From: Rhodospirillum centenum SW
Lineage (GTDB): Bacteria > Pseudomonadota > Alphaproteobacteria > Azospirillales > Azospirillaceae
Length of the DNA: 64,000 bases
Direction: 5' to 3'
Assembly (NCBI RefSeq): GCF_000016185.1
Contig: NC_011420.2
Location: forward strand, 186,001-250,000
Shown: positions 5,596-24,845 of the stretch, piece by piece
Layout of the letters: each line of letters begins with the position of its first letter
Position numbering within the stretch: position 1 is the first letter of the stretch
The notes under the pieces: model-generated
The model's input: the letters and a program-made list of their open reading frames with translations, nothing else
Database searches by the model: none
Told to the model about the DNA's origin: nothing
Program-made: the position numbers and the translations under genes

Positions 5596-5627
5596 GGTTT
5601 CCGTCCTCATGACCTCATGTCCACCGA

Positions 5628-5675
5628 CATTAGCAGCCCGCGATTAAACGTGGGTGAAGGGTTGCCTTTGGAAAC
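5628..5675 (-). promoter_or_regulatory. Flagellar box upstream of flaF
   Basis: Read toward flaF, the element is TTCA-N7-TTAA (5644-5658), then 10 bases and CTAATG (5628-5633). Just upstream of the box, at 5661-5675, is an imperfect palindrome GTTGCC-TTT-GGAAAC. The arrangement matches the boxes ahead of other flagellar units in this window and resembles a CtrA-type site over the -35 position. Confidence 0.6.
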
Positions 5676-5705
5676 ACCCAGCAAACCTCTGTCCCAAAAC
5701 AGGAA

Positions 5706-5733
5706 AAAGGGACCGCCGCAAGGCGGTCCCTTT
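5706..5733 (-). terminator. Intrinsic terminator of the flagellin gene
   Basis: A perfect 12-bp stem (AAAGGGACCGCC with its complement) closes on a 4-base loop. On the minus strand it is followed by TTTTTCC. It begins about 30 bases after the flagellin stop and separates flagellin from flaF. Confidence 0.85.
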
Positions 5734-5764
5734 CCCGGGGCAACGATCCTGGACTGGCCGCGGA

Positions 5765-6631
5765 TCAGCGGAACAGCGACAGGATGTTCTGCGGCGCGCC
5801 ATTGGCGATGGAGAGCGCCTGGATGCCGAGCTGCTGCTGCACCTGCAGGGCCTGCAGACGAGCGGACTCCTCGTTCAGGTTGGCGTCCACCAGGGTGCCG
5901 ATACCCTCGTTCAGGCTGTCGATCAGCTTGCTGGTGAAGTCGGCCTGCAGCTCAAGCCGCTTGCCGATGTTACCGAAGCTGGAGGCCGCGTTCACCACGG
6001 TGGTGATCTGGGCCTCGACGCCGGTGGTGGCGTCGGTCAGCGCGGTGTTGGCAGCGGCAGCCTTGGCAGCGGCGTCGGCGCCACCGGTGATGGCGGTCAC
6101 GTAACCGCCAACCGCCGTGGCAACGGCCGTCAGGTCAACGCCGGACACGCTGTCGGTCACGGCGGAGATGCCGGTCGCGGAGCGATTGATCGACACCACC
6201 AGGGTACGGGCGGTGGTGTTGTTCAGCAGGTTCTCGCCGTTGTAGCTCGCAGCGTTGATCGTGTTGGTGATCTGATTCTGCAGGCTGGTCAGCTCCGCGG
6301 TGATCTTGGAGTGATCGACCGAGGCGGTGGTGGCGAGCGCGAGCTGCGACTTCACCTGGGACAGCAGGTTCTGGATGTTCTCGGTGCCGACGCGGGCGGT
6401 CTGCACAGTCGCGGCGTTGATCGAGATGTTCTCGTTCAGCGCCTTCAGGGCGGACACGTCGGCCTTCATGGTGGTCGCGATACCCCAGTAGGACGAGTTG
6501 TCCTTGGCGGTGGCGACCTTCATGCCGGTGGAGATGCGATCCTGAACCGTCTGCAGATCCTTGCTGGTGCGGTTCAGGGTCTGCAGCGCCACCATGGCGC
6601 CGGTGTTGGTGAGAATCGAGGAAGCACCCAT
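5765..6631 (-). CDS. Flagellin
   Basis: A 288-residue filament subunit, short as in many alphaproteobacteria. The N-terminal D0/D1 region has LNRTSKDLQTVQDRISTG and the NSSYWGIATTMKADV helix. The C-terminal D1/D0 region has GNIGKRLELQ and ends ALSIANGAPQNILSLFR. The central Ala/Thr-rich variable part (about residues 140-200) is small, so the outer filament domains are largely absent. It is monocistronic, with its own promoter box at 6736-6750 and a strong terminator downstream. FlaF and FlbT, which tune flagellin output elsewhere, lie next to it. The start ATG opens MGASSIL. Confidence 0.95.
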   Translation of the reverse strand: MGASSILTNTGAMVALQTLNRTSKDLQTVQDRISTGMKVATAKDNSSYWGIATTMKADVSALKALNENISINAATVQTARVGTENIQNLLSQVKSQLALATTASVDHSKITAELTSLQNQITNTINAASYNGENLLNNTTARTLVVSINRSATGISAVTDSVSGVDLTAVATAVGGYVTAITGGADAAAKAAAANTALTDATTGVEAQITTVVNAASSFGNIGKRLELQADFTSKLIDSLNEGIGTLVDANLNEESARLQALQVQQQLGIQALSIANGAPQNILSLFR

Positions 6632-6719
6632 TTCTTTCGTCCTTCATGGATGGGGTTGGTCCGGGCGCCTTCTGGCACCGTGTCGGCGCGGGCTGTGCCG
6701 CTGTTTCCGAACGCCCCCA

Positions 6720-6771
6720 CCCTCGCACGCCTCGTTTAAACGTGGGTAAAAATAGTTTCCTTTATGGATAC
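6720..6771 (-). promoter_or_regulatory. Flagellar box upstream of flagellin
   Basis: Read toward flagellin, the box is TTTA-N7-TTAA (6736-6750), with the same core CCCACGTTTAA as the flaF box. Ten bases downstream is CGAGGG rather than CTAGG. Just upstream, at 6755-6771, is GTTTCC-TTTAT-GGATAC, an inverted repeat with one mismatch. About 90 bases of leader separate the box from the start codon. Confidence 0.6.
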
Positions 6772-6800
6772 GTCGGCAACGACCAGGTCGGCGCACATGC

Positions 6801-6834
6801 AGAAGGGCCGCCGGTCGATACCGGCGGCCCTTCT
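6801..6834. terminator. 15-bp perfect hairpin after the flgI-flgJ-flgN-like unit
   Basis: The arms AGAAGGGCCGCCGGT and its complement are separated by a 4-base loop. It lies 27 bases after the stop of the flgN-like gene. No long T-run follows, so termination could be weak or assisted. Confidence 0.65.
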
Positions 6835-6861
6835 CATCCCCTGGGCTGCTCCCCCGGGACC

Positions 6862-7425
6862 CTACAGCTCGCGCTCCACCCGGGCGAAACTGGGCGTGAC
6901 AGCCCGTCGGGCCTGACCGCTGCGCCCGTAGACCCCATCGCTGCGGCTGCGTTCGACGGCGGCGGCGATATGGCCGGCGACCGCCGACACGGCATCCTGG
7001 GCCGCGCGGATCGCCCGTCGGTTCGTTTCGACAGCCCCGCGCAGCCGGGAGGCCGCGGCCCGCACAGCGGCCGGGTCGTCCACCGGGGGTTCGGGGGGGC
7101 TCTTCTCTCCGGCACCGTCCGCCGCAGACACATCCGTTTCTTCGGCCCGCCCCGGTCCCGGCGCGGAAGTTTCCGGCATCGCGAGCACCGCCGTGCCGGT
7201 CTCGACCACCGGCCCGGGAAGGACAGGTTGCTGCGGCCGGTTGGCTTCTTTCAACAGTATCCCGAGTTGCTCGAAAAGCGCGTGCTTCGCCTCGGTATAG
7301 AGCTTCAGCTCCTCCGCATCGGCGCGGGCGACGCGCCCCGTCTCCTCATCCAGCAGGTCAGCCAGAGTGTCGAAGGCGTCCCGCAGCCGCTGGCGCAGGT
7401 CGGGCGGCAGAGTATCCACATCCAT
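6862..7425 (-). CDS. FlgN-like flagellar protein (tentative)
   Basis: A 187-residue protein. The first 70 residues form a predicted amphipathic helix pair (LRDAFDTLADLLDEETGRVA then ELKLYTEAKHALFEQLGILL), the layout of FlgN-type export chaperones for hook-associated proteins. The middle is Pro/Ala-rich and the C-terminus is a second helical, basic segment ending VEREL. The ATG at 7425 is chosen because AGGAGAG, inside the end of flgJ, lies just upstream. It is the last gene of the flgI-flgJ unit. Assignment is by helix pattern and position. Confidence 0.5.
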   Translation of the reverse strand: MDVDTLPPDLRQRLRDAFDTLADLLDEETGRVARADAEELKLYTEAKHALFEQLGILLKEANRPQQPVLPGPVVETGTAVLAMPETSAPGPGRAEETDVSAADGAGEKSPPEPPVDDPAAVRAAASRLRGAVETNRRAIRAAQDAVSAVAGHIAAAVERSRSDGVYGRSGQARRAVTPSFARVEREL

Positions 7426-7429
7426 GACG

Positions 7430-7729
7430 TCAGCTCTCCTTGGCCTGGCGATAGGCATTGATCTGGGCATAGACGGCTTCGGCGATCCCGGTTCCGGCCC
7501 CGTTTCCCCCGGCCATGGCCGAACCGTAGTTCTCCAGCAGAAGGCCCCGATAGGTTTCTTCGGCGAAACCACCGCCGAACGGGCCGTCCGTGGACAGGCC
7601 CGCGAACATGGCCTCCAGCATCTGCGACATCATCATGCCCTCGAAGGCCTTCGCCGTCTTCCAGGCCGGGTCGTTCGGGCGGGCGGCCACGCCGGCGGGC
7701 GTCGCTGCCAGCGGGGAAACATGCGTCAT
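7430..7729 (-). CDS. flgJ: FlgJ-type rod-binding protein (short form)
   Basis: A 99-residue protein consisting only of the rod-binding domain: KTAKAFEGMMMSQMLEAMF, then FGGGFAEETYRGLLLENYG and an Ala/Gly-rich end. The muramidase domain of enterobacterial FlgJ is absent, as is usual in alphaproteobacteria. It acts as a cap or scaffold for rod assembly in the periplasm. The ATG at 7729 shares its first base with the last base of the flgI stop region, and GGAGG lies 8 bases ahead, so translation is likely coupled. A GTG one codon earlier is also possible. Confidence 0.82.
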   Translation of the reverse strand: MTHVSPLAATPAGVAARPNDPAWKTAKAFEGMMMSQMLEAMFAGLSTDGPFGGGFAEETYRGLLLENYGSAMAGGNGAGTGIAEAVYAQINAYRQAKES

Positions 7730-8862
7730 CACAGCACCTCCAGATCGGCGTGCAGGGCGCCGGCGGCCTTGATCGCCTGCAGAATTGAAATGATGTCCCG
7801 TGGTCCCGCTCCCAGCCGGTTCAGGCCATCGACCAGCTCGCGCAGGCTGACGCTGCCCTGGACGATGTTCAGGCGGTTGCCGGATCCGTCCTCCACCTCG
7901 ATGTCCGTGCGCGGCACCACCACCGTCTGGCCCTGCTGGGCGAAGGGACCTGGCTGGGAAACCTGTGGAGTCTCCGTCACCCGCACGGTCAGGTTGCCCT
8001 GCGCGATGGCGACCGTGCTGATGCGCACGCTGTCGCCCATGACGATGGTCCCCGACTGCTCGTCGATCACCACCCGCGCCGGCTGGTCGGGCGTGACCGG
8101 AAGCGTCTCGACCCGGGAGATCAGGTCCGCGACGTTACCAGCATAGGCGCCGGGCACGGTCAGTTCGACCGTCGTCGGGTCCGTGGCGCGGGCTGAATAG
8201 GCGCCGAGCTGGCGGTTCACGGCCTGGGCGATCCGGGTGGCGGTGGAGAAGTCCGGATTGCGCAGCGTCAGCCGCACGCGCGCCAGGTCGTTCAAGGCGA
8301 ACTCGACCTCGCGCTCGACGATGCCGCCGTTGGGAATACGGCCCGCGGTCGGCACGCCCTTGGTGACGCTCGCCGCTTCCCCGCGGGCGGAGAAGCCCCC
8401 CACCGCCACGGAGCCCTGCGCGACCGCATAGACCGACCCGTCGGCCCCGATCAGCGGCGTGGCCAGCAGGCTTCCGCCCAGCAGGCTGGTGGCATCGCCC
8501 ATGGTGGAAATGGAGACATCGAGTCGCGATCCCTGGCGGGCGAAGGGCGGCAGTTCGGCCGTCACCATCACCGCCGCCACGTTGCGGGTCTTCACGTTCA
8601 GGCCGGTGATGTTGACGCCCATGCGCTCCAGCATCCCCTCCAGGCTCTGCTGCGTGAAGGGCGAGTTCTGGAGGCGGTCCCCGGTGCCATCCAGACCGAC
8701 CACGAGGCCGTAGCCGATCAACTGGTTGCTGCGCACCCCCTCGACCTCGACCAGATCCTTGATGCGCATCTGCGCGAAGGCCGGGCCGGCGGACGGCAGG
8801 ACGGACAGGAGGAAGGCCAGGACGACTGCGAGGGCGCGCTGGCCGGAACGGCGGGCATCCAT
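7729..8862 (-). CDS. flgI: FlgI flagellar P-ring protein
   Basis: A 377-residue periplasmic protein with a Sec signal peptide: a basic MDARRSGQR start, then a hydrophobic stretch ending AGPAFA. FlgI hallmarks follow: RIKDLVEVEGVRSNQLIGYG, LVVGLDGTGD and FTQQSLEGMLERMG. It assembles the P ring around the rod in the peptidoglycan layer. First gene of the flgI-flgJ-flgN-like unit, with a flagellar box at 8914-8928. Length and motifs are ordinary. Confidence 0.95.
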   Translation of the reverse strand: MDARRSGQRALAVVLAFLLSVLPSAGPAFAQMRIKDLVEVEGVRSNQLIGYGLVVGLDGTGDRLQNSPFTQQSLEGMLERMGVNITGLNVKTRNVAAVMVTAELPPFARQGSRLDVSISTMGDATSLLGGSLLATPLIGADGSVYAVAQGSVAVGGFSARGEAASVTKGVPTAGRIPNGGIVEREVEFALNDLARVRLTLRNPDFSTATRIAQAVNRQLGAYSARATDPTTVELTVPGAYAGNVADLISRVETLPVTPDQPARVVIDEQSGTIVMGDSVRISTVAIAQGNLTVRVTETPQVSQPGPFAQQGQTVVVPRTDIEVEDGSGNRLNIVQGSVSLRELVDGLNRLGAGPRDIISILQAIKAAGALHADLEVL

Positions 8863-8898
8863 GCCTCAACCCCGTTTTCTTTTCGGCAACAGGGGCAG

Positions 8899-8928
8899 CC
8901 TAGCGTTCCCGGGTTAAAGCGGCTTTTA
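8899..8928 (-). promoter_or_regulatory. Flagellar box upstream of flgI
   Basis: Read toward flgI: TAAA-N7-TTAA (8914-8928), then CCCGGGAACG and CTAGG. The spacing of 10 bases from TTAA to CTAG is the same as upstream of fliK, the 787-residue protein gene and the 78-residue gene. Confidence 0.65.
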
Positions 8929-8997
8929 GCCCAGGCGTCCGGTCAGCCACTTTGTTAAGAGGTTTATCTACAAATCGAACTATAATTTATCCGTGGG

Positions 8998-9012
8998 TTA
9001 AACTCAGATTAA
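8998..9012. promoter_or_regulatory. Perfect CtrA-type box TTAA-N7-TTAA
   Basis: TTAA-ACTCAGA-TTAA matches the CtrA consensus exactly. It sits in the divergent region between flgI and the CtrA/FtcR-like regulator, about 140 bases before the regulator start. An AT-rich stretch with TATAAT (8981-8986) lies beside it. It may serve autoregulation or control by the cell's CtrA. Confidence 0.7.
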
Positions 9013-9151
9013 ACGCGCCGGATCCTTGACTCTTGCCAGCAAGTCATGCGGTAGATAATCAAGAAAGTGGTAAGACCAAATAACAAACAATTTTACGGAA
9101 ATCTACGCGCAACGGTGTACCCGGTCGATCGGGATCAACATGGAGAGGGGC

Positions 9152-9922
9152 ATGCGCATCCTGCTTATCGAAAACGAGCGGCTCATCGCTGCGGCACTGC
9201 ACCGGGAGATCGGCAAAGCCGGCCTGCGGTGCGAACTGTCTGACGAAGCCGACGCCATCCGGCTGATGCAGGAAGGCGACGACAGCTTTGCCGACTACGA
9301 TGCGATCCTGGTCGGCACCGTGTCGAACGGCGGCGGCCTCGTCACACAGCTCCGCCGCTGCTCCGGACATACGATCATCATCGGCCTGCTCGGCCACCGC
9401 TGCGTCACCAGCACGATCGCCTATCTGCGCTCCGGTGCGGACGATGTGCTGGTCAAGCCGATCAACGCGCTGGAGTTCGAGGCCCGGCTGCACGCCGTGC
9501 GCCGGCGGACGCATGGCCATAGCTCCTCCGAGCTGCGCGTCGGCCGCCTCACCGTTTATCTCGACGGGCGCGATCCGGCGGTGGACGGGCAGCGGCTGCG
9601 GCTCAGCCACCGCGAACACGCCATCTTCAGCGTGCTGGCCCTGAATGTCGGCCGGGTCGTTTCGAAGGAAAAGATCTACGAAACGGTCTATGGCCTGACC
9701 GGCTCCGATCCGTTGGACAAGGTCATCGACGTCTATATCTGCAAGCTGCGCAAGAAACTGGCGGAAGCAACGGGCGGCGACCGCTACATCGAGACCGTCT
9801 ACGGACGCGGTTACAAGTTCGAGGCCCCCTCTGAGGAGGAAGCCGACATCGGCCCCGTCGCGCACATCGCCCCCCTCTCCCCGGCCCTCGCCGCGGACGA
9901 CGGGCGCCACGTCAGCGGCTGA
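9152..9922 (+). CDS. OmpR/CtrA-family flagellar regulator with atypical receiver
   Basis: A 256-residue protein: a receiver-like domain (1-115) and an OmpR-type winged helix (about 125-225). The DNA-binding part, LSHREHAIFSVLALNVGRVV, then DKVIDVYICKLRKKL and YGRGYKF, is close to CtrA. In the receiver the expected phosphoacceptor Asp is Gly55 (YDAILVG), and the acidic pair is E7/N8. The conserved Lys (VKPI) remains. Such receivers occur in Rem and FtcR, flagellar activators of Rhizobiales, so it probably works without phosphorylation. ATG 9152 is preferred over 9140 because GGAGAG lies just ahead. It is flanked by flgI and flgL and preceded by a perfect TTAA-N7-TTAA. Confidence 0.82.
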   Translation: MRILLIENERLIAAALHREIGKAGLRCELSDEADAIRLMQEGDDSFADYDAILVGTVSNGGGLVTQLRRCSGHTIIIGLLGHRCVTSTIAYLRSGADDVLVKPINALEFEARLHAVRRRTHGHSSSELRVGRLTVYLDGRDPAVDGQRLRLSHREHAIFSVLALNVGRVVSKEKIYETVYGLTGSDPLDKVIDVYICKLRKKLAEATGGDRYIETVYGRGYKFEAPSEEEADIGPVAHIAPLSPALAADDGRHVSG

Positions 9923-10024
9923 AGCCCTCCCGCTGGCGGTCATCGGATGCGATGCCCGCCATGACCGAAGCGCTCTCTTCCCCCCATCCGAACGGCCTGC
10001 CGATCCGGGTCTTTCCCGACCTCC

Positions 10025-10088
10025 GGCGCCGGCGGAAACGGTACTGTTCAGGCCTGGGACCTGACTGCCGGTTCCGCCGGCGCCTTTT
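10025..10088 (+). terminator. Terminator of the flagellar regulator gene
   Basis: GGCGCCGGCGGAA pairs perfectly with TTCCGCCGGCGCC over 13 bp, enclosing a 34-base loop that can fold further (TCAGG/CCTGA). TTTT follows on the + strand. Confidence 0.7.
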
Positions 10089-10131
10089 GCGTCGGCGTGT
10101 CGGCGCGGCCACGACCGGACGCTGGAATCGG

Positions 10132-10167
10132 AACGGCCCCGGGCGGTGTTCACTGCCCAGGGCCGTT
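10132..10167 (-). terminator. Hairpin at the end of the flgE-flgK-flgL operon
   Basis: A 17-bp stem with one mismatch and one wobble closes on a 2-base TT centre, about 30 bases beyond the flgL stop. No T-run follows on the minus strand. Together with the hairpin at 10025-10088 it separates two convergent units. Confidence 0.65.
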
Positions 10168-10198
10168 TCCTGTCGGGTCTGCGTGTGAGGGAGAGACC

Positions 10199-11266
10199 TC
10201 AGAGGAAATCGATCAGCGACAGCTTGCTGATCCGGCTCGTCATGGCAAAGGTGGCTTCGAGCTGGGTCTCCAGCGTGTTCAGCCGCAGCCCCGTCTCGTA
10301 AGGATCGGCCATTTCCATCTGCGTGATCTGCTTCGACAGCAGCCCGTCTTCGACCTCGTGCCGCTCATCGGCCCGCTTCAGCAGTTCCTCCTGAAGGCCG
10401 ATGATGCCCTGGGTGTCAATCAGCTCGTCGGTCGCCTGGGTGATCAGCCGCCAGCCCTGGTCGGCGATCCGCTGATAGGCTTCCGTGGAAACGGATTCGG
10501 AAGGCACTGCCGCCAGCAGATAGAGGCCCTTCAGCAAGGTCCGGACGGGCTCGTCGCCGGCCGTGCAGGCATAGGTCACCGGCAGGTCCTCGCCTGCCCT
10601 GCCCTGCACCTGGGTCGTGCTGCCCAGGAAGAAGGTCTTGGAGAAATTCTCCGGAGCCGCCGGTCCCCCGCCATAGGTGTCGGAGAAGATCGACGACAGA
10701 CCGTTCGGACCGTTCAACGCCGCATCCACATCGGCTGCCGTCGATGTCGGCCCCAAGGAGGAGAGCACGGATTTCACCGCGTCCAGGGGCGCAATGCCGG
10801 ACGGCGCCGTTTCCGTGGGCGGCTGCATCGGCCGGGTATCAAAGCGCGTGCCCGCGAAGAGATAGCGGCCCGACTGGGAAGAATTGAACATCGAGGACAG
10901 GGTCTGAATCGCGTTCAGCGCTGCCTCGTCGATCGTCGCGGCCGCCGCTCCCACGCCCGAGCCGGAAACGCTCAGCGCCAGGTCGCGGACCTGGGTCGCC
11001 GAGCCCCGCACCTTGTCCAGGGCTTCCTGCATCAGCGTGAGCCGAGAGGACTGCGTCTGGATGGACTGGCGGTACTCGGCCGTGGTCTGGCGGGCATTGC
11101 GCAGATCGAGCAGCAGCGCCGCACGACTGCCTACGGAACCGGCGACATCCGACTTCTTGCCGGTTCCGATCTCAAGTTCAAGGGTATGCATGTCCGACTG
11201 CATGGTGCGGACAAGGTTCCGGGTCTGGCGCGCCAGAGCCATGGTCGAGATGGAAGACACCGACAT
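10199..11266 (-). CDS. flgL: FlgL hook-filament junction protein (HAP3)
   Basis: A 355-residue flagellin-like protein. The N-terminal helix carries ARQTRNLVRTMQSDMHTLEL and EIGTGKKSDV, and SSQSGRYLFAGTRFDTRP is the segment typical of FlgL. The C-terminal helix ends ATFAMTSRISKLSLIDFL. FlgL links hook to filament. It starts 3 bases after the flgK stop and is last in the flgE-flgK-flgL operon. No anomalies. Confidence 0.93.
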   Translation of the reverse strand: MSVSSISTMALARQTRNLVRTMQSDMHTLELEIGTGKKSDVAGSVGSRAALLLDLRNARQTTAEYRQSIQTQSSRLTLMQEALDKVRGSATQVRDLALSVSGSGVGAAAATIDEAALNAIQTLSSMFNSSQSGRYLFAGTRFDTRPMQPPTETAPSGIAPLDAVKSVLSSLGPTSTAADVDAALNGPNGLSSIFSDTYGGGPAAPENFSKTFFLGSTTQVQGRAGEDLPVTYACTAGDEPVRTLLKGLYLLAAVPSESVSTEAYQRIADQGWRLITQATDELIDTQGIIGLQEELLKRADERHEVEDGLLSKQITQMEMADPYETGLRLNTLETQLEATFAMTSRISKLSLIDFL

Positions 11267-11268
11267 GC

Positions 11269-12756: not shown

Positions 12757-12770
12757 CGCGCCCTCCCCCG

Positions 12771-14075: not shown

Positions 14076-14138
14076 GGCGGTTTTCCATCGTTTGTCGGCA
14101 GATCGGCGGAGTCCGCTCGGACCTCCTCCTGCCATACG

Positions 14139-14201
14139 GTAGGCCGGCGTCGTTTAAAGGCGCGTGAAAACGGCCAGCGGATCGTTTCCTATTGGGAAAC
14201 G
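14139..14201 (-). promoter_or_regulatory. Flagellar box and palindrome upstream of flgE
   Basis: Read toward flgE: TTCA-N7-TTAA (14154-14168), then 10 bases and CCTAC. At 14183-14201 a palindrome CGTTTCC-TATTG-GGAAACG overlaps the end of motB. The palindrome may act as an operator or as the motB terminator. Confidence 0.55.
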
Positions 14202-15166: not shown

Positions 15167-15169
15167 GGT

Positions 15170-16054: not shown

Positions 16055-16105
16055 GGTTTCCCTCCGGAGCGGGTGTTGGGACGGGGCGAGTGTGCCCGCG
16101 CCCGA

Positions 16106-18469
16106 TTAAGGCCGGTTTTCGGTTCGGCTCGCGGCGGACAGGCGGAGCAGCGCGTCGGTCTCGGCCAGCAGCCGGTCCATCCCGGCCGCTCCCGCCGGCG
16201 GAGTGCGTTCTTCGGCCAGGGCGGCGAGCTGTGATGCCCAGGGCCCGCCGGCCAGCAGATCGGCATGCGCCGCCAGCAGACGGCGGGGCGCTTGTGCATC
16301 ACCGGCCAGATAGGACGCGACCCCCAGGCGCCCGACCGCGTCCGGCAGCCCGGCCCGGCCGGCATCATCGGCCGGCAGGGCCGTGAGAGCCTGCACCAGA
16401 AGATCGTAGGTCCTGGCAGCCTCCGGCCAGCGGGCCGACCGCCACAGCGCATCGCCCCGGGCCGTGAGCCCTGCGGCGTCCTTGGGCGTGCCGATCAGAT
16501 CAAGGGCCATGTCCGCATTGCCGGTCACCGCCGCCGCCCGCGCCCGGACGGCGCGGGCCTCCGGCGTGTCCTCGGGCACCAGCGTGGCGACCGCCTCGGG
16601 CCGGCCTGCCGTCAGTTCCAGCAGCGCCAGTTCCTGACGGACCGGGCCGGCCTCCGTCGGCGGAAGGGCCTGCGCCACCTGGGCCAGCTCGCGCGCTGCA
16701 GCCATCGTCAGCCCCTGGGCCGCCAGCAGGCGGGCATACCCGATCCTGATGTCGAGCCCGGCCCGGCCCGCCGGCACCAGGGCGCGGTTGCGCTCGAACG
16801 CCGCCACCAGATCAGGGGCGGGACCAGCGGCCAGCATGGCCGTGAAGTCCCCGACCGCCCGGGCCGTCTCCGCCGCCAGGGCTTCCGACGCCGGGAACCG
16901 ATCGACCAGGAGCCGGAGCGTATCCAACGCCTCCACAGGACGCCCCTCGGCACGGGACAGCCCGGCCTGCCGCGCCAGCGCACGGAATTCCACTTCGCCG
17001 CCCCGCCAGTCGCGGGCGATGTCCTCCAGCACGGAGCGAAGTCCCGGCGCATCCAGGTCGCCGCGGGTGAAACGCAGGTCAGCCGCCGCCAGTCTGGCCC
17101 GGGCTCCGGCCTCACCGGGCAGGACCGCCGCCTTGTCGTACTGTTCGAGGGCCAGATCCTTGCGGCCGGTCCCCTCATGCAGACGACCGATCAGCAGATG
17201 CAGACGGGCCTGGTCCGGTTCCGCCAGCCCCGCCTCCTCGGCGATCCGGGCGAGATCACGTCCGACGGAGTCGCGGCCCGCACCGGCCGCCACCGCCAGC
17301 AGGTCCAGTGCGAAGGCACCGCGCAGGTCAGCCGGAAGGCCCGGCAGCGCCTTGTCGGCAGCCGGCAGCAGCGGCAGCGCCTCCGCCGGCCGCCCCCGGC
17401 GCGCAAGCAGGACCGCAGCCCACAACGGCCCGTCCGCATGGGTCAGCGCCTCCGGTCCGGCCAGCCAGTCGGCCGCTGTGGCGTCCGGTTCCTCCAGCAG
17501 GGTCGCTGCCGCCAGCAGCGGCCCGTCGCCGGCCGCGCGGGCGGCCGCCGCAGCCTCGGGTCCCAGGCCCCAGGCAAGCAGGAAGCGGGCGAAATCGCGC
17601 CGCGCCTCCGGGGCATCGGGACGGGCCGCGGCTTCCCGCAGGGCGGAGCGGCGGGCCCGGAACGGCTCGACCCGCCATGCCGCGAGATCGAACAGCGCAG
17701 GCCCCTGCGCCGGGGCAGGCGCCGGCGGCGCCGCAGGCGCGGGCGTTGTGGCGACAGGCGATGCGCCGACGGGGGGCGACGCCGTGGGATCGGCAGGACG
17801 CGGAACCGGCTCGCCGTTGCCGGCGGCACGGGGGGCTGCCCCGGTGTCCGCTGCCGGAGTGCCGGGCCGGGTGTCGGGATCGCGCTCCACGGCTTCCAGG
17901 GCGTCGGCCACTGCCTGGCGCACATGGCGCGCCTGCCCTTCCGTGACCGGGGCCGGGGCCGGGGCGACGGTCGCCGCTGCCGCCTGCGTCCGCACGGTCT
18001 CCCCCCCGGCGCTTCCGGCCGACGTGCCGACCGCTGCCGGCTCTCCGGATGCACCTCCGGACGCGGCGGACGCGACACTCCGGGCTGCGACCGTGCCGGG
18101 TGCCGGCTTCCGATCCGGCATCGGCACCGCACTCACCGCCAGGACCAGATCGCCCCGCCGCCCCTTCAGCTCCACCCGGGCCCCGCAGGGCACGCCGACG
18201 ACCAGCGTCTCGGGACTGGCCATCGACAGGGAGAGAACGCTCCCGAGCGGCCGTGTCGGAAGGCTCCCGATGTCCACCGGAGCCGACACCGACAGGGTCG
18301 CCGAACAGGCGTCCTGGATCAGCGCGCGGCGCGCCGATGCCAGTCCGGGCAGCACCAGTTCCGTGGCGCCGGGCCGCAGCCGCAGCTCGGCGGCGACCGG
18401 CGGGTCCGCCTGGGCGCCGCTGGAAACGAGGAGAGCCATGAGGGCGGCAGCGGGGAGCGTCGTTTTCAT
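16106..18469 (-). CDS. Large exported TPR/helical-repeat protein of the flagellar locus
   Basis: A 787-residue protein. MKTTLPAAALMALLVSSGAQA is a clear Sec signal peptide, so the product is likely periplasmic. Residues 25-115 form a strand-rich domain with two Cys (DACSATL and GVPCGAR) that may pair. Residues 120-260 are a low-complexity Ala/Pro linker. The remaining 500 residues are Ala/Leu-rich helical repeats of TPR type, for example LLIGRLHEGTGRKDLALEQY. No known name fits. It has its own flagellar box at 18519-18533 and is followed by motA and motB. A role in stator or rod assembly is inference. ATG 18469 is chosen because the signal peptide starts there. Confidence 0.7.
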   Translation of the reverse strand: MKTTLPAAALMALLVSSGAQADPPVAAELRLRPGATELVLPGLASARRALIQDACSATLSVSAPVDIGSLPTRPLGSVLSLSMASPETLVVGVPCGARVELKGRRGDLVLAVSAVPMPDRKPAPGTVAARSVASAASGGASGEPAAVGTSAGSAGGETVRTQAAAATVAPAPAPVTEGQARHVRQAVADALEAVERDPDTRPGTPAADTGAAPRAAGNGEPVPRPADPTASPPVGASPVATTPAPAAPPAPAPAQGPALFDLAAWRVEPFRARRSALREAAARPDAPEARRDFARFLLAWGLGPEAAAAARAAGDGPLLAAATLLEEPDATAADWLAGPEALTHADGPLWAAVLLARRGRPAEALPLLPAADKALPGLPADLRGAFALDLLAVAAGAGRDSVGRDLARIAEEAGLAEPDQARLHLLIGRLHEGTGRKDLALEQYDKAAVLPGEAGARARLAAADLRFTRGDLDAPGLRSVLEDIARDWRGGEVEFRALARQAGLSRAEGRPVEALDTLRLLVDRFPASEALAAETARAVGDFTAMLAAGPAPDLVAAFERNRALVPAGRAGLDIRIGYARLLAAQGLTMAAARELAQVAQALPPTEAGPVRQELALLELTAGRPEAVATLVPEDTPEARAVRARAAAVTGNADMALDLIGTPKDAAGLTARGDALWRSARWPEAARTYDLLVQALTALPADDAGRAGLPDAVGRLGVASYLAGDAQAPRRLLAAHADLLAGGPWASQLAALAEERTPPAGAAGMDRLLAETDALLRLSAASRTENRP

Positions 18470-18488
18470 CGGCAACTTCTTGGAAACT

Positions 18489-18533
18489 TGAACGCCCGTT
18501 TAACCTAGCGTCGCCACATTAAAGCCGCTTCAA
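18489..18533. promoter_or_regulatory. Two divergent flagellar boxes (flgF and the 787-residue protein gene)
   Basis: On the + strand TGAA-CGCCCGT-TTAA (18489-18503) points to flgF. On the minus strand TTGA-N7-TTAA (18519-18533) points to the 787-residue protein gene, followed after 10 bases by CTAGG. The two units therefore share one control region. Confidence 0.65.
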
Positions 18534-18566
18534 AACCTCCCACGCCCATTGCCGGAGAGCGGTCCC

Positions 18567-19313
18567 GTGGAGAATTCGCTGTACGTGGCACTGTCCCAGC
18601 AGATGGCTGTGCGCCGGATGCTGGACGTCACCGCCAACAACGTCGCCAACATGAACACGGCGGCCTTCCGGGCAGAACGTCCGGTCTTCGATGCTTTTGT
18701 CGAGAAGGCCGGCAAGGGTCAGAAGGTCGCCTTCGTCATCGACCGCGCGACCTACACCGACACGCGGGACGGCACCGTCGCCTCCACCGGCAATCCGCTG
18801 GACGTGGCGGTGCGCGGCGATGCCTGGCTGAGCGTCGCCACCCCCGACGGCATCCGCTACACCCGCGACGGACGTCTGAACCGCGACCCGGACGGCCGGC
18901 TCGTCACGCTGGACGGCTATCCGGTGCTGGACGAGGGCGGCGGCGAGATCACCCTGCCCGAGGATGTCGGCGCCATCGCCATCACCGCCGACGGCGCCAT
19001 CCGAGCCCCGGCCGTGGACAGCGAGAACGGCGAGGTGGAGGAGCTGGGCCGTCTCGGCCTCGCCCGGCTGCCCGCGGCCGGCGACCTGGAGCGCGACGGC
19101 TCGGGCCTTGTCCGCTACGACGGCGATCCGCTGCCCGCGGAGGGCGCGACCCTGATCCAGGGCGCGGTCGAAGGGTCCAACGTGCAGCCGATCACCGAGA
19201 TGGTCCGGCTGGTCGAACTGACCCGGGCCTACGGACAGGCCAACCGCATGGTCGAATCCGAACACGAACGTCAGAAGACGGCCATTTCCAAGCTCGGCGG
19301 CCCGGCCACCTGA
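18567..19313 (+). CDS. flgF: FlgF proximal rod protein
   Basis: A 248-residue protein beginning ENSLYVALSQQMAVRRMLDV followed by TANNVANMNTAAFRAERPVF, the FlgF/axial N-terminal motif. Further on are VRGDAWLSV, TRDGRLNRDPDGRLVTLDGY and the C-terminal EGSNVQPITEMVRLVELTRA. The GTG at 18567 is chosen because GGAGAG lies 7 bases upstream and family members start with this sequence. First gene of flgF-flgG-flgA-flgH. FlgF forms part of the rod near the cell membrane. Confidence 0.93.
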   Translation: MENSLYVALSQQMAVRRMLDVTANNVANMNTAAFRAERPVFDAFVEKAGKGQKVAFVIDRATYTDTRDGTVASTGNPLDVAVRGDAWLSVATPDGIRYTRDGRLNRDPDGRLVTLDGYPVLDEGGGEITLPEDVGAIAITADGAIRAPAVDSENGEVEELGRLGLARLPAAGDLERDGSGLVRYDGDPLPAEGATLIQGAVEGSNVQPITEMVRLVELTRAYGQANRMVESEHERQKTAISKLGGPAT

Positions 19314-19347
19314 GGCCGCGGACGGACGCCGCACCAAGGAGACTAGC

Positions 19348-20133
19348 ATGCGCACGCTGAACATCGCGGCCACCGGCATGATGGCCCAGCAGCTCAACGT
19401 GGAGGTCATCTCCAACAACATCGCGAACCTGAACACGGTCGGCTTCAAGCGCAGCCGGGCGGAGTTCCAGGATCTGATGTACCAGGCCCAGGTCCGGCCG
19501 GGCTCGGAATCCTCCGATCAGGACACGATCGTGCCGGCCGGCATCCAGCTCGGCCTGGGCGTGAAGCCGGCCGCGGTCAGCCGCATGCACGGCCAGGGTC
19601 CGCTGACCCCCACGGAGAATGACTACGACGTGGCCCTGGACGGCCGCGGCTACTTCGTCATCACCCTGCCGAACGGGGACACCGCCTATACCCGCGCCGG
19701 CAACTTCCAGCTTTCGCCCGAGGGCACCATCGTCACGGTGGACGGCTACACCGTCAGCCCCAACATCACGGTGCCCGACAATACCCGCAAGGTGGCGATC
19801 AACCGCAACGGCGAGGTTCTGGCCTTCATCGACGGCCAGACGGAGCCGGAGAATGTGGGGCAGTTCGAGGTGGCGACCTTCGTCAACGAGGCCGGTCTGG
19901 AGGCGATGGGCGACAACCTGTTCCGCGAGACGCCCGCCTCCGGCATCCCGATCCTGGGCATCCCCGGCCAGCTCGGCTATGGCGGCATCCGCCAGGGCTA
20001 TGTCGAGGCAGCGAATGTCAACATCGTGCAGGAGATCACCAGCCTGATCTCGGCCCAGCGCGCCTATGAGATGAACAGCCGTGTCGTCGAAGCCGGCGAC
20101 CAGATGCTGAACACCGTCACCCAGATGCGCTGA
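19348..20133 (+). CDS. flgG: FlgG distal rod protein
   Basis: A 261-residue protein starting MRTLNIAATGMMAQQLNVEV with ISNNIANLNTVGFKRSRAEF. FQDLMYQ is typical of FlgG, and the C-terminal helix EAANVNIVQEITSLISAQRA followed by YEMNSRVVEAGDQML is diagnostic. It forms the distal rod that passes through the P and L rings. AAGGAGA lies ahead of the ATG, 34 bases after flgF. Length is standard. Confidence 0.96.
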   Translation: MRTLNIAATGMMAQQLNVEVISNNIANLNTVGFKRSRAEFQDLMYQAQVRPGSESSDQDTIVPAGIQLGLGVKPAAVSRMHGQGPLTPTENDYDVALDGRGYFVITLPNGDTAYTRAGNFQLSPEGTIVTVDGYTVSPNITVPDNTRKVAINRNGEVLAFIDGQTEPENVGQFEVATFVNEAGLEAMGDNLFRETPASGIPILGIPGQLGYGGIRQGYVEAANVNIVQEITSLISAQRAYEMNSRVVEAGDQMLNTVTQMR

Positions 20134-20140
20134 GGCGATC

Positions 20141-20788
20141 ATGCGATACCTGCTCCCCCTGCTGGCGATCCTCGTCCTTCCCGCCCCCGCCCTGGCGAAT
20201 GCCGGCGAGGCCGTTGCAGACGAGATGGTGCGGCGCTTCGGCGGCTCGCTGCCGGAGGGGGAGCTGCGCGTGCGGCTGGACCAGGAGGGGCCGGCCGACA
20301 TCATCGGGGTGGAGACGCTCCGCTACGATCCGCGTTCCGGCCGGGTGGCAGCGATCCTCGTCGCCGCGGAAGGGCGTTTCGCGGTGGAGGGCAGCGCCTG
20401 GACGGAGATCGAGGCCGCCGTGCCGAACCGCCGTCTGACGCCCGGAGAGATCATCCAGCCGGGCGATCTGGCCTCCCTCCCCGTCCGCGCCGATCAGGTC
20501 AGCGCCCGCGCCGTCGTCGCCCCGACCGACCTGATCGGCAAGCAGGTCCGCCGCGCCCTGGTGCCCGGCCGGCTGGTCCAGTCCGGGTCCGTCGGCGAGC
20601 CCGTCGTGGTCGAGCGCAGCAAGCCGGTGACCCTGGAATTCCGCAGCGGCGCCCTGCTCCTGACCGCCCGGGGCCGCGCCCTGGAGAGCGGCGGGGTGGG
20701 CGACGTGGTGCGGGTCATCAACCTGGACAGCAACCGCACCATCACCGGCGTCGTCAGCGGCCCCGGTGTCGTCTCGGCTTCGCCCTGA
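20141..20788 (+). CDS. flgA: FlgA P-ring assembly chaperone
   Basis: A 215-residue exported protein with signal peptide MRYLLPLLAILVLPAPALA. The C-terminal two thirds form the SAF/FlgA domain: RRLTPGEIIQPGDL, VVAPTDLIGKQVRRALVPGR and VVRVINLDSNRTITGVVSGP. FlgA assists assembly of the FlgI P ring in the periplasm. Seven bases separate it from flgG, and flgH follows. Confidence 0.92.
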   Translation: MRYLLPLLAILVLPAPALANAGEAVADEMVRRFGGSLPEGELRVRLDQEGPADIIGVETLRYDPRSGRVAAILVAAEGRFAVEGSAWTEIEAAVPNRRLTPGEIIQPGDLASLPVRADQVSARAVVAPTDLIGKQVRRALVPGRLVQSGSVGEPVVVERSKPVTLEFRSGALLLTARGRALESGGVGDVVRVINLDSNRTITGVVSGPGVVSASP

Positions 20789-20819
20789 CGTCCGTCCCGA
20801 TCCGATCAGGAATCAGCCC

Positions 20820-21557
20820 ATGCCCCGCATCCGCCCCGCCGCCGCCCTGCTTCTCCTGGCCAGCCTGCCCGGCTGCGCCGGACAGTTCGACCATCTCGGC
20901 CGGGCGCCTGCCATGTCGCCCATCGAGGATCCCGGCATGCAGACGGAGGCACGGCTGGTCAGAATGCCCATGCCGGTGCCCTCGACCGAAGCACGCCAGC
21001 CCGCCTCCCTCTGGCGCACCGGGTCCACCGGCTTCCTGCGCGATCTACGTGCCAAGCGGGTGGGCGACATCGTCACGGTCGTGATCGACATGTCCGAGCA
21101 GGCCCAGATCCGCAACCAGACCCAGCGCAGCCGCGCCTCCGGTGAGCAGATGGGGACGCCGAACTTCCTGGGGCTGGAGAGCAGGCTGGGCGCCGTGCTG
21201 CCCGATGCGGTGGACCCCGAGCGGCTGGTCAACCTGAACAGCTCCAGTTCCAGCACCGGGGCCGGGTCGGTCAACCGGCAGGAACAGATCCAGCTCAAGG
21301 TCGCTGCCGTCGTCACCGACGTGCTGCCCAACGGCAATCTGGTGATCGCCGGCAAGCAGGAGGTGCGGGTGAACTTCGAGCTGCGCGAGCTGCGCATCGC
21401 CGGCGTCATCCGGCCCGAGGACATCAGCACCCGCAACATCATCAGCTACGAGAAGATCGCCGAGGCGCGCATCGCCTATGGCGGCCGTGGCCAGATCACG
21501 GACGTGCAGCAGCCCCGTATCGGCCAGCAGGTGCTGGACGTCGTGCTGCCCTTCTGA
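20820..21557 (+). CDS. flgH: FlgH flagellar L-ring lipoprotein
   Basis: A 245-residue outer-membrane lipoprotein. The signal peptide ends in the lipobox LPGC. FlgH hallmarks follow: FLRDLRAKRVGDIVTVVID, NGNLVIAGKQEVRVNFELRE and ISYEKIAEARIAYGGRGQIT. The ATG at 20820 is chosen from the lipobox position; AGGA lies about 9 bases ahead. It builds the L ring of the basal body. Cotranscribed with flgF-flgG-flgA. Confidence 0.95.
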   Translation: MPRIRPAAALLLLASLPGCAGQFDHLGRAPAMSPIEDPGMQTEARLVRMPMPVPSTEARQPASLWRTGSTGFLRDLRAKRVGDIVTVVIDMSEQAQIRNQTQRSRASGEQMGTPNFLGLESRLGAVLPDAVDPERLVNLNSSSSSTGAGSVNRQEQIQLKVAAVVTDVLPNGNLVIAGKQEVRVNFELRELRIAGVIRPEDISTRNIISYEKIAEARIAYGGRGQITDVQQPRIGQQVLDVVLPF

Positions 21558-21576
21558 GCCCGACGGAAACACCGCC

Positions 21577-22038
21577 ATGGCCTCCAGCCCCCGCCTTTTC
21601 CTGGCCGCTGTGGCGTCCAGTGCGGTGCTCGGCTTCGCGCTCGGTCGCGTGGTCGTGCAGCCCGTCCCCGCCACGCCGCCGGCCGACCCGCCCCCAGGGG
21701 CCGCGTTGGGGTCGAAGGATATCGAGATGCTGGCGGACCTGGGGCAGATCATCGTACCGATCTGGCGGGAGGGACGGATCGCCGGGTATGTGGCCGCCGC
21801 CATCAGCCTGCGCCTCGCCCCCGGCAGCGCCCCGTCCGAACTGATGCCGATTCTGCATGACCGGATGCTGGCGACCCTGATCGACGCAGGCGCCGAGGGG
21901 CGCCTCGATCCCGGTACGGCCGATCCGGCAGCCCTGTCCGCGGCGCTGCTGGAGGCGGCACGGGATGCCATCGGCCCCGACCGGGTGCGCAGCCTGGATC
22001 TTTCCAAGCTGGTACGGCAGGAGAACCGCGCCACCTGA
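21577..22038 (+). CDS. Small membrane-anchored protein after flgH
   Basis: A 153-residue hypothetical protein. One N-terminal hydrophobic segment (RLFLAAVASSAVLGFALGRV) is followed by a Pro-rich linker. The small soluble domain begins DIEMLADLGQIIVPIWREGR and contains IAGYVAAAISLRLAPGSAPS. The layout of one helix plus a small periplasmic domain recalls FliL, but no FliL motif is secure. It lies 19 bases after flgH on the same strand and presumably acts in the flagellum. Confidence 0.6.
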   Translation: MASSPRLFLAAVASSAVLGFALGRVVVQPVPATPPADPPPGAALGSKDIEMLADLGQIIVPIWREGRIAGYVAAAISLRLAPGSAPSELMPILHDRMLATLIDAGAEGRLDPGTADPAALSAALLEAARDAIGPDRVRSLDLSKLVRQENRAT

Positions 22039-22136
22039 GGCCACACCCCGCTGCGGCCAAGAGGCGCAGGTCCCGGACAGACAAGCCTGTCACCTGCGCG
22101 GATGCGACCCCTTCCCGGCGCACGCAGATCGTGTAT

Positions 22137-22152
22137 GTTTCCGTCAGGAAAC
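22137..22152. promoter_or_regulatory. Palindrome GTTTCC-GTCA-GGAAAC upstream of the XRE regulator
   Basis: Perfect 6-bp arms around a 4-base spacer, ending 13 bases before the XRE start codon. This position suits autoregulation. Close variants occur upstream of flaF, flagellin and flgE. Confidence 0.55.
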
Positions 22153-22165
22153 TATCAGGTCCGCC

Positions 22166-22777
22166 ATGCCGCCCGACGTTCCCGTCCGTGATTCAAGCCG
22201 TCTGCGCAGCCTGCGCACTGCCCGGGGGATGAGTCTGTCCGCGCTGGCCGCGAAGGTCGGGCTGTCCAAGGGGGAACTGTCCAAGCTGGAGACGGGCGTC
22301 CGCCCCTTGCGCCCCGATCATGTCGCCAAGCTGGCCCGGGCCTTCGAGATCGCGCCCTCCGACCTGGTCGGGGAGGCGAGCGCCCTGCGTGCCATGATCG
22401 CCCCGGAACCGGCGACCCTGCCGCTCTATGACGGGCGCGATCTGGCCCGGGTCGGGGATGCGGCGGAACCCATCGGCAGGGTCGATGCGCCGGCGCAGCT
22501 CCGCTCCGTGCCGGACGCCTATGCCATCACCATCAACGATCTGTCGAACGCGCCGGCGCTGATGCCGGGGGTCGTCCTGCATGTGCATCCCGGCCGCGCA
22601 CCGGCGCTCGGCGACCTCGTGGTGAACCGGGTGAGCTGGTCGCCGCTCGCCTTCTACCTGCGCCAGGACGATGACGGACGGTTCTACGGGCTGACCCTGT
22701 CCCGCCGTCGTGTCGAACTGTCGCTGGAGGAGGTCGAGCGGCTCCACAAGGTCGCCGGCATCTGGTTCGTCGGCTGA
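22166..22777 (+). CDS. XRE-family regulator with S24-like C-terminal domain
   Basis: A 203-residue protein. The N-terminal helix-turn-helix (about residues 12-66) reads LRSLRTARGMSLSALAAKVG and LSKGELSKLETGVRPLRPDH. After a linker, the C-terminal half has VLHVHPGRAPALGDLVVNRV, the pattern of phage-repressor/LexA-type S24 domains, often without protease function. The ATG at 22166 is chosen because AGG lies just ahead and the HTH then falls at the usual position. Located between flgH-linked genes and convergent flgD, it may regulate flagellar genes; this is inference from position and shared palindromes. Confidence 0.8.
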   Translation: MPPDVPVRDSSRLRSLRTARGMSLSALAAKVGLSKGELSKLETGVRPLRPDHVAKLARAFEIAPSDLVGEASALRAMIAPEPATLPLYDGRDLARVGDAAEPIGRVDAPAQLRSVPDAYAITINDLSNAPALMPGVVLHVHPGRAPALGDLVVNRVSWSPLAFYLRQDDDGRFYGLTLSRRRVELSLEEVERLHKVAGIWFVG

Positions 22778-22796
22778 CGGGCCGCGTGCCAGAGAA

Positions 22797-23456
22797 TCAG
22801 CCGGCGGAGACGATCTGGTCGCGCTGGACCTGAAGACCGCTGCGCATGACGAACACGGTCTCGCCATCCACCCGGCGGACCCGTTCGACCGTGTCCGCCG
22901 TCTGGACGGTGCTGCCCAGCCGGTCACCTGCGGGATTCCGCGGCGCCACGTCGATCTGGTAGATGCCGTCCGCAAGCTTGACGCCGCTGTCGTCCAGCCC
23001 GTCCCAGGTGAGCAGATGGCTGCCCGGAATGCTGCTGCCCTCCAGGGTCCGCACGATGGTGCCTTTCTGGTCCAGAATGCGGATCTCCGTCTTCTCGGTA
23101 TCTTCCGGAACGGTATAGCTGGCCTTGGCGCCGCCGCCGATGAGGGGCAGCGCATCGGACTCGATCTCGACCGTCCGGCCGACATAGGCCAGATCCAGCC
23201 GCTCGCTGCTGGAGCGCAGCTCCCCCAGCACCTCGGCCAGCCGCGTGTTGGACTGCACCGCCTGCTCCACGGAGGAGAACTGGGCGAGCTGGGTGACGAA
23301 CTGGGTGGCGTCGATCGGCGCCATCGGGTCCTGGTTGGCAAGCTGCGCGGTCAGCAGCTTCAGGAAGGACTGGGTGTCCTGGGCCAGCCGGACGCTCGCC
23401 ACGTCGGCGGTGGTCTGCTGCGAGCCGGCGGCGGACGGAGGGGCAACGGTGGTCAT
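22797..23456 (-). CDS. flgD: FlgD hook cap/scaffold protein
   Basis: A 219-residue protein. The N-terminal conserved part SFLKLLTAQLANQDPMAPID followed by ATQFVTQLAQFSSVEQ identifies FlgD. The rest forms the FlgD FLN/tudor-like region (SHLLTWDGLDDSGVKLADGI). FlgD caps the growing hook. It follows fliK by 10 bases and is transcribed with it. Its 3' end is 19 bases from the convergent XRE gene. Confidence 0.93.
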   Translation of the reverse strand: MTTVAPPSAAGSQQTTADVASVRLAQDTQSFLKLLTAQLANQDPMAPIDATQFVTQLAQFSSVEQAVQSNTRLAEVLGELRSSSERLDLAYVGRTVEIESDALPLIGGGAKASYTVPEDTEKTEIRILDQKGTIVRTLEGSSIPGSHLLTWDGLDDSGVKLADGIYQIDVAPRNPAGDRLGSTVQTADTVERVRRVDGETVFVMRSGLQVQRDQIVSAG

Positions 23457-23466
23457 GCTCTGAACC

Positions 23467-24729
23467 TCACACCTGGATGTCGATCAGTCCGTCCACCGCT
23501 CGGGAACGGACGGGGTCGGCGGGGCCGGCGGTTTCACCGACGGCTGCCAGCAGGCGGGCGCCGCGGTGCAGCGGATCGCCCCCCTGCGAGGCGCCCTGGC
23601 CGCCGTTCTGGCCGCCACCTTCGCGCAGGCTGAACTGGAGTCCGTCCTGTTGCAGCCGGAGCCCGCCCTGTTCCATGGAGCGTTCCAGCAGGCGGGCGTC
23701 CCGTTGCAGCAGATCAAGGGTCTGGGGACGGTCGGCCATCACCAGCGCGTGCAGGCGCCCGTCCTGGAATTCCAGCTTGACCTCCACGCGGCCCAGCTCC
23801 TCAGGCTCCAGGTGGACGGTGAAGCTCCGGGGGCCGCCATCGGCCACGGCCCGTTCGATCTGGACATGGATCTGCGCGGCGGGACCGGGAGCCCCGGCGC
23901 GCCCCGCCTGATGCACCGCCGCCGCGCGGGCGGCATCACCGGCGACGACCGTCGGCGCCACGGCGGCGGCAGCCGGCGCCACGGCATCGGGCAGCAGCGT
24001 GGCCGTGCCGTCGGCAAGCGTGGCAGCCGCGTCCACGGAGGCCGCGGGACGGACCACCTCCGCGCCGGTCGCAGCGGCCCTGACCGGGGGGCGGACCGCG
24101 GCGGCGAGGGACTGGACGGCGCTATCGGCCCGCGTCTGCCGCTCAGCCCCGTCCCGCCCCGCCGGCTGACCCGCACGGGATGCCGTCTCCTGTAGAGGGG
24201 CAGGCGCAGTCGATGGAACGGTCCCGGGCACGGCATCGACGCTGCCGGAAGGCCCGGACAGAGTTGTCCCGCCGGCATCCGGGGGAACGCCGGCGATGCC
24301 TTGCCCCCCCTGTCTGTGCGCCGGCATCCCGACGACGGGAGCCGGAGCCGTTCCAGACGACACGGCCGGAGCGGCCTGGAGCAGCACCCCGCCGCTGGCG
24401 GATACGGACGTGGACTCCGCCGGCACCACGGGAGCGAGTGCGATCATCGGAAAGGGCGCGACAAGCGGCGCCTGCCCCTCCAGTCCCGTGGCCTCACCTT
24501 CCGTCGGCCTGGCTCGCCTGGGCTGTCCGGCAACCGCCGCCCCCTCGCCATCGCCCTGGGGCTGGACGAGTGCCAGCGCGGCAAGGAAGCCGGCTATCCC
24601 GGTCGCGCCGCTTGCCGCCGCGCCCCCTGCCGACGCCGTGCCGTTGCTGCCCTGAACCGCCCCACCGCTCTGGCCGGCAGCCGCGGATGCCGTCCCGGAG
24701 GGCGCGGTCTGGATCGGTATCGGCAGCAT
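23467..24729 (-). CDS. fliK: FliK hook-length control protein
   Basis: A 420-residue protein. The first 290 residues are Ala/Pro/Gly-rich and poorly structured, as expected for the molecular-ruler part. The C-terminal domain (about 295-385) has SFTVHLEPEELGRVEVKLEF and ALVMADRPQTLDLLQRDARL, the conserved substrate-switch region of FliK. It is secreted and triggers the export change from hook to filament proteins. First gene of fliK-flgD, with a flagellar box at 24784-24798. Confidence 0.9.
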   Translation of the reverse strand: MLPIPIQTAPSGTASAAAGQSGGAVQGSNGTASAGGAAASGATGIAGFLAALALVQPQGDGEGAAVAGQPRRARPTEGEATGLEGQAPLVAPFPMIALAPVVPAESTSVSASGGVLLQAAPAVSSGTAPAPVVGMPAHRQGGQGIAGVPPDAGGTTLSGPSGSVDAVPGTVPSTAPAPLQETASRAGQPAGRDGAERQTRADSAVQSLAAAVRPPVRAAATGAEVVRPAASVDAAATLADGTATLLPDAVAPAAAAVAPTVVAGDAARAAAVHQAGRAGAPGPAAQIHVQIERAVADGGPRSFTVHLEPEELGRVEVKLEFQDGRLHALVMADRPQTLDLLQRDARLLERSMEQGGLRLQQDGLQFSLREGGGQNGGQGASQGGDPLHRGARLLAAVGETAGPADPVRSRAVDGLIDIQV

Positions 24730-24769
24730 GGTGAATCCCTCCGAATGACAGGCGTTCTCGGGGGCAACC

Positions 24770-24798
24770 CTAGCCGGGCGGGATTAAAGCGGGTTTGA
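24770..24798 (-). promoter_or_regulatory. Flagellar box upstream of fliK
   Basis: Read toward fliK: TTGA-N7-TTAA (24784-24798), then 10 bases and CTAGGG. It faces a second, oppositely oriented box 18 bases away. Confidence 0.65.
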
Positions 24799-24816
24799 AG
24801 ACGGGACGCTCGGGCT

Positions 24817-24845
24817 TGAAACCGGCTTTAACCCGGGAAGCCTAG
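24817..24845 (+). promoter_or_regulatory. Flagellar box upstream of the 78-residue gene
   Basis: TGAA-N7-TTAA (24817-24831), then CCCGGGAAGC and CTAGT. The stretch CTTTAACCCGGGAA is identical to that ahead of flgI. Confidence 0.65.

Follow-up and report, generated by a model that had tools for sequence, protein, structure and literature searches.

Which signal sets the promoters of the lateral-flagella genes of Rhodospirillum centenum, and which protein reads it? We addressed these questions in a window of 64,000 nucleotides from strain SW (C1:186001-250000 of the 4,355,543-base single-contig genome; positions without a prefix are window positions), which holds a flagellar locus that we infer to be the lateral-flagella cluster of this organism. 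Eight flagellar units of the locus are preceded by a box of the form T..A-N7-TTAA, and a gene for an OmpR-type regulator related to CtrA and Rem starts at position 9152 among them. The boxes and the bases that follow them probably represent a single lateral-flagella regulon promoter, driven by regulator 9152 at a weak sigma-70 -10 element.

A sequence-only reading of the window had placed the box ahead of flaF, flagellin, flgI, flgE, a gene for a 787-residue protein, flgF, fliK and a gene for a 78-residue protein, and a re-scan recovered all eight at those places, each with a spacer of 7, TTAA as the second half and a degenerate first half (T..A). The promoters are as follows.

5631..5658, minus strand: flaF promoter, TTCA-N7-TTAA (5658-5644), N10, CTA; A-11 at 5631, T-7 at 5627
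6723..6750, minus strand: lateral flagellin promoter, TTTA-N7-TTAA (6750-6736), N10, CGA; T-7 at 6719
8901..8928, minus strand: flgI promoter, TAAA-N7-TTAA (8928-8914), N10, CTA; T-7 at 8897
14140..14168, minus strand: flgE promoter, TTCA-N7-TTAA (14168-14154); -10 one base off, with A at 14140 and T at 14136
18489..18516, plus strand: flgF promoter, TGAA-N7-TTAA (18489-18503), N10, CCA; T-7 at 18520
18506..18533, minus strand: promoter of the 787-residue protein gene, TTGA-N7-TTAA (18533-18519), N10, CTA; T-7 at 18502
24771..24798, minus strand: fliK promoter, TCAA-N7-TTAA (24798-24784), N10, CTA; T-7 at 24767
24817..24844, plus strand: promoter of the 78-residue protein gene, TGAA-N7-TTAA (24817-24831), N10, CTA; T-7 at 24848
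8998..9012, no strand assigned: perfect TTAA-N7-TTAA located between flgI and the gene for the regulator, its first base 154 bases ahead of the ATG at 9152

The earlier observations that CTA lies exactly 10 bases past TTAA in five units (flaF, flgI, the 787-residue protein gene, fliK and the 78-residue protein gene), that flagellin (CGA), flgF (CCA) and flgE (CCTA) depart from it, and that the regulator gene carries a perfect TTAA-N7-TTAA all held. The re-scan added a T at -7, which follows A-11 at a fixed spacing in 7/8 units, flgE having both bases one position farther from the box. The divergent flgF and 787-residue gene promoters (18486-18540) interlock, so that each -10 overlaps the opposite TTAA, and this arrangement is retained in several relatives. 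The genes that head the boxed units are listed below.

5236..5610, minus strand: flaF (PF07309, NF009435)
5765..6631, minus strand: lateral flagellin (PF00669/PF00700)
7729..8862, minus strand: flgI, from reading of the translation and from flagellar-locus matches at 56-79% identity
12771..14135, minus strand: flgE, from reading of the translation and from orthologs; a start at 14080 is also possible
16106..18475, minus strand: 787-residue protein, no Pfam or NCBIfam match
18549..19313, plus strand: flgF (TIGR02490, above cut-off)
23467..24729, minus strand: fliK (PF02120)
24874..25110, plus strand: 78-residue protein, no Pfam or NCBIfam match

The abundance of the box was measured against 100 dinucleotide shuffles of the window and, genome-wide, against the reversed motif, with matches counted on both strands. 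The window contains 11 strand matches, compared with 0.61 on average, and never more than 5, in the shuffles. Addition of CTA at +10 left 7 matches in the genome (control, 3), of which 5 lie in the window, and addition of A-11/T-7 left 19 (reversed control, 5). Eleven of these 19 fall within 43 kb (C1:167.66-210.85 kb; binomial P of about 6e-18, for a motif built from the same locus). Expressed per bare box, A-11/T-7 is present at 11/19 boxes inside the cluster versus 8/93 elsewhere (Fisher P = 6e-6). Boxes with A-11/T-7 beyond the window precede fliI and flgB (C1:184.8 kb) and, close to a fliG, two short genes without a Pfam match (C1:167.7 and 168.7 kb). At flgB (L008:12293-12757) the box lies 7 bases ahead of the first ATG of the frame, and the true start is therefore probably a later ATG.

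Conservation was examined in 29 loci, comprising 10 from the family, R. centenum among them, and 19 drawn from the 38 named loci L068-L105, with a box scored when it lay within 300 bases upstream of a gene. A box precedes 56/93 orthologs of the boxed genes (47/84 when the nine of R. centenum are left out) versus 2/133 genes deeper in operons, most of which have no intergenic DNA ahead of them. All 20 flagellin upstream regions examined, that of R. centenum included, carry it. When ten loci were pooled, a spacer of 7 gave 65 matches, spacers of 8 and 9 gave 51 and 36, and other spacers gave 5 to 29 (reversed control, at most 29); the raised counts at 8 and 9 probably reflect register slippage in the A-rich first half. 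In the same pool CTA follows the box 18 times at exactly 10 bases and 0 to 4 times at each of 19 other distances. The pattern extends to Parvularculaceae, in which three loci (L100, L103 and L104) have a box with CTA at +10 ahead of FlgE/FlgG-type or flagellin genes; the flgE and flagellin boxes there share the spacing, and the regulator gene lies inside those of their loci that were examined.

What kind of promoter this is can be read from 61 distinct boxes upstream of orthologous genes, 11 of them from R. centenum, in which six positions were fixed by the search pattern. Among the free positions only T-39 (49/61), A-11 (46/61) and T-7 (46/61) exceed 0.8 bit. The sequence-only reading had proposed an unusual -10; instead, the conserved A-11 and T-7 match a weak sigma-70 -10, and the element looks like a degenerate version of one. 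Taking the conserved A as -11 puts the end of the box at -24. In the CtrA-controlled fla2 promoters of Rhodobacter sphaeroides, the box stops 23 or 24 bases short of the mapped start, A-11 never varies, and the spacer is 6 in two cases (PMC6180460). In Caulobacter, full CtrA sites begin at about the -35 position, that of ctrA P2 beginning at -39 (PMC4287350). The box end at -24 together with A-11, as in R. sphaeroides fla2, thus gives the geometry the look of CtrA-activated promoters with a weak sigma-70 -10, and the suggestion of a CtrA-type element overlapping the -35 is backed by both this geometry and conservation upstream of orthologous genes. The likeness to the Caulobacter full-site class and to fla2 covers the box, the spacer of 7, a box end some 24 bases from the presumed start and the conserved A-11. 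The boxes here differ in their degenerate first half (T..A) and in having T before and usually A/T after the second TTAA; the regulon comprises one lateral-flagella cluster, and its starts are presumed where those of fla2 are mapped.

The candidate reader of these boxes is encoded within the cluster.

9152..9922, plus strand: CtrA/Rem-like OmpR-type regulator, its receiver lacking the phospho-acceptor Asp (Gly instead) and the LPD loop

The gene lies six genes from that of the 787-residue protein and, judged by gene order, is probably RC1_0209. One report labels RC1_0209 'ctrA' (PMC4681086), and the protein so named may be regulator 9152 rather than CtrA. We rejected the identification of regulator 9152 as true CtrA: it scored 157.4 bits with the CtrA model NF045991 (cut-off, 350), compared with 423.3 for the CtrA of the same genome (C1:1804347), and its phospho-acceptor Asp is replaced by Gly. 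The receiver domain itself falls below the Pfam cut-off (28.6 versus 30.2). Asp51 is Gly in 37/37 lateral-type rows of the alignment (36 genes, L051 and L021 being one gene) and Gly or Ser in 6/6 Parvularcula-type rows, but Asp in 21/21 CtrA-type rows; Asp8 is also lost in 37/37 lateral-type rows and the LPD loop is absent, while Lys101 is retained. Identity to the CtrA-type rows compared is 36-42%. Regulator 9152 and CtrA (RC1_1752; NF045991) share an OmpR-type DNA-binding domain with an almost identical recognition helix, and differ in the loss of the phospho-acceptor Asp and the LPD loop. The proposal that one regulator, possibly the CtrA-like protein at 9152, serves the whole locus is the best reading of the data as an assignment from sequence, with the correction that the protein is a receiver-dead relative and not CtrA. 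Neither the promoters nor the role of the regulator were found described in the literature searched, which lacked most subscription papers.

Matches to the regulator at 57-72% identity were found in 9/58 relatives searched, and the gene lies among flagellar genes in R. centenum and in 8/9 of these relatives. The ninth is a metagenome-assembled genome (MAG; G005, loci L025, L058 and L059) in which the regulator is also present. The closest named carriers are mostly Azospirillaceae. A class-wide search for the lateral type (E 1e-43) returned R. centenum only among 289 genomes, at least three of which were other family members. Several Azospirillum contigs each carry two lateral-type copies (L077/L078, L076/L081, L087/L098 and L085/L099). 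Lateral MotA was tried as a co-occurrence marker of cluster and regulator and was dropped, as paralogs blurred the signal. A Cro/C1-type helix-turn-helix protein (PF01381; 22160-22774), encoded downstream of the flgF-flgG-flgA-flgH run, is a possible further regulator.

Loss of Asp51 also characterizes the Rem/FtcR-type regulators, and we examined kinship with them. A first Rem search in the class (1e-27) gave no match in 190 genomes; a looser one gave a single strong match in 385 genomes, followed by matches in 14/81 genomes of the order of that match. A Nitratireductor gene located in a flagellar cluster (L106) led to the Rem/FtcR-type rows, which are labelled by context and kinship and include no named Rem or FtcR sequence; all 16 have Gly (15) or Ser (1) in place of Asp51. 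Trees united the lateral, Parvularcula and Rem types with support of 100/96 (64 rows) and 99/99 (41 rows), with a long Rem stem, but an alternative tree grouping the regulator with CtrA was not rejected (approximately unbiased test, P = 0.103). The resemblance to these context-labelled Rem/FtcR rows comprises a gene within the flagellar cluster, the lost Asp51, a DGRDP-type signature and the joint clade in two trees. The differences lie in the recognition helix (VESHISKLRKK in P0001 versus IDVYICKLRKK) and in the presumed targets of regulator 9152, which carry CtrA-type boxes; the reported FtcR motif TGTGGGCA had 0 matches in the window compared with 2.27 expected. Rem and FtcR are master regulators of flagella, and LafR of Bradyrhizobium is a presumed relative of FtcR. 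LafR is described as the lateral-flagella regulator of that genus (PMC5996035), FtcR-like genes have been reported close to flagellar genes in Rhizobiales (PMC8639532), and Rem has no obvious partner kinase (PMC4018554).

Several results weigh against a single promoter code read by regulator 9152. Across the genome the bare box shows no enrichment (112 strand matches versus 143 for the reversed control), so that the case for the promoter depends on the longer motif and its conservation among relatives. The prospect that the motif might be equally common ahead of unrelated genes was tested: the bare box is no commoner than its control, but the box with A-11/T-7 is concentrated in the cluster. 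Strict CTA is loosely kept (13/93 ortholog upstream regions), and the box itself is patchy ahead of flaF (4/21), flgI (7/13) and flgF (7/15). No box was found upstream of fliF (0/10) or fliL (0/3), which leaves some units outside the pattern. In 37/93 regions a box also lies on the other strand, as a result of divergent units and near-palindromes. The G005 locus contains none of the flagellar genes searched for and no box in 40 kb. Lateral genes do not have the code to themselves, as the same spacing ahead of sciP, described below, shows. A CtrA homolog is also reported to affect swarming and encystment in R. centenum (Bird and MacKrell 2011, PMC4340629), and CtrA could accordingly bind the boxes itself.

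True CtrA, encoded elsewhere in the genome, remains a rival or an upstream input. As a rival it would bind the boxes directly, with protein 9152 a minor player, partner or modulator. The nearly identical recognition helices, the tie of a CtrA homolog to swarming (Bird and MacKrell 2011) and the occurrence of the same geometry ahead of sciP and at the CtrA-driven fla2 genes all speak for such direct control. The sciP gene (L135:18233-18606), which encodes a CtrA inhibitor, lies beside polar flagellar genes, and its box, with the same N7/N10 geometry and an A-11/T-7 match outside the cluster, is an internal example of the promoter; Caulobacter sciP likewise appears in a list of promoters bearing a CtrA motif (PMC4287350). 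Yet this is the one box in three polar flagellar stretches totalling 60 kb, and a dedicated regulator sits inside the cluster here and in 8/9 relatives. In unpublished results cited in PMC2890560, FlbD mutations of R. centenum affect polar, not lateral, flagella. The lateral boxes also differ from the others: among the matches listed, T at -28 is found in 21/23 lateral-cluster boxes versus 17/104 elsewhere in the family, and C/G at -23 in 3/23 versus 73/104, a post hoc comparison without the rows of G016, G025 and G034, in which the 'elsewhere' set surely includes chance matches and lateral loci were assigned by position, 5/23 sites (one each in G002, G012, G017, G021 and G031) lying as much as about 8 kb beyond the stretches retrieved. 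These differences suggest, but do not prove, a reader other than CtrA, and we consider direct control by CtrA unlikely. A two-step cascade, compatible with control by regulator 9152, has a better claim, if one still short of an even chance: CtrA would act on the 9152 gene through the site at 8998-9012, protein 9152 would act on the structural units, and both would compete at some boxes. Of 42 distinct regions upstream of the regulator, 22 hold a T..A-N7-TTAA in the last 320 bases, 13 of these a perfect TTAA-N7-TTAA, and RC1_0209 and ctrA RC1_1752 are both reported as up-regulated at 96 h of encystment (PMC4340629). The motif is absent from the other 20/42 regions, and the site at 8998-9012 is followed on neither strand by CTA at +10 or by A-11/T-7.

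An alternative sigma factor (sigma-54, ECF41 or FliA-type), with the box as part of its recognition sequence, is a far weaker candidate that we regard as improbable. The window has no excess of sigma-54-like sites when up to two mismatches are allowed (53 versus 67 expected; 0 exact, two with one mismatch; no ECF41 search was made), the conserved downstream bases A-11 and T-7 are those of sigma-70 promoters, and Azospirillum brasilense has no FliA homolog. Least credible, to the point that we give it almost no weight, is an origin by chance or AT-rich intergenic composition. The rarity of TTAA in this 70% GC DNA and the genome-wide count of the bare box can be cited for it, but the window enrichment, the fixed CTA distance, the ortholog conservation and the clustering of the refined motif stand against it, and a test of the refined motif did not show an equal density ahead of unrelated genes.

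Returning to control by regulator 9152, a dimer of the protein encoded at 9152-9922 would bind T..A-N7-TTAA and cover the -35 position (bases -38 to -24), and the bound regulator would bring in RNA polymerase carrying the housekeeping sigma factor at a weak -10 in which A-11 and T-7 are conserved. Since its receiver lacks the phospho-acceptor Asp, the regulator would probably act independently of phosphorylation and be controlled by its amount. The perfect TTAA-N7-TTAA ahead of its own gene is a possible site of self-regulation or of entry for true CtrA.

Taken together, these data provide a promoter code that can be put to the test and name a candidate activator of the inducible lateral flagella in R. 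centenum and its relatives. More tentatively, and with less than even confidence, we propose that Azospirillaceae and Parvularculaceae keep a regulator that stands in evolution between CtrA and Rem/FtcR, free of phosphorylation and with the CtrA helix kept, whose box has been re-tuned (T before and A/T after TTAA); this would shield the lateral regulon from the CtrA present alongside it, also at the interlocked divergent promoters, where each box covers the -10 of the other. R. centenum also offers, within one cell, two natural regulators whose recognition helices are almost alike and of which only CtrA would be open to phosphorylation, a pair suited to asking how their targets are kept separate.

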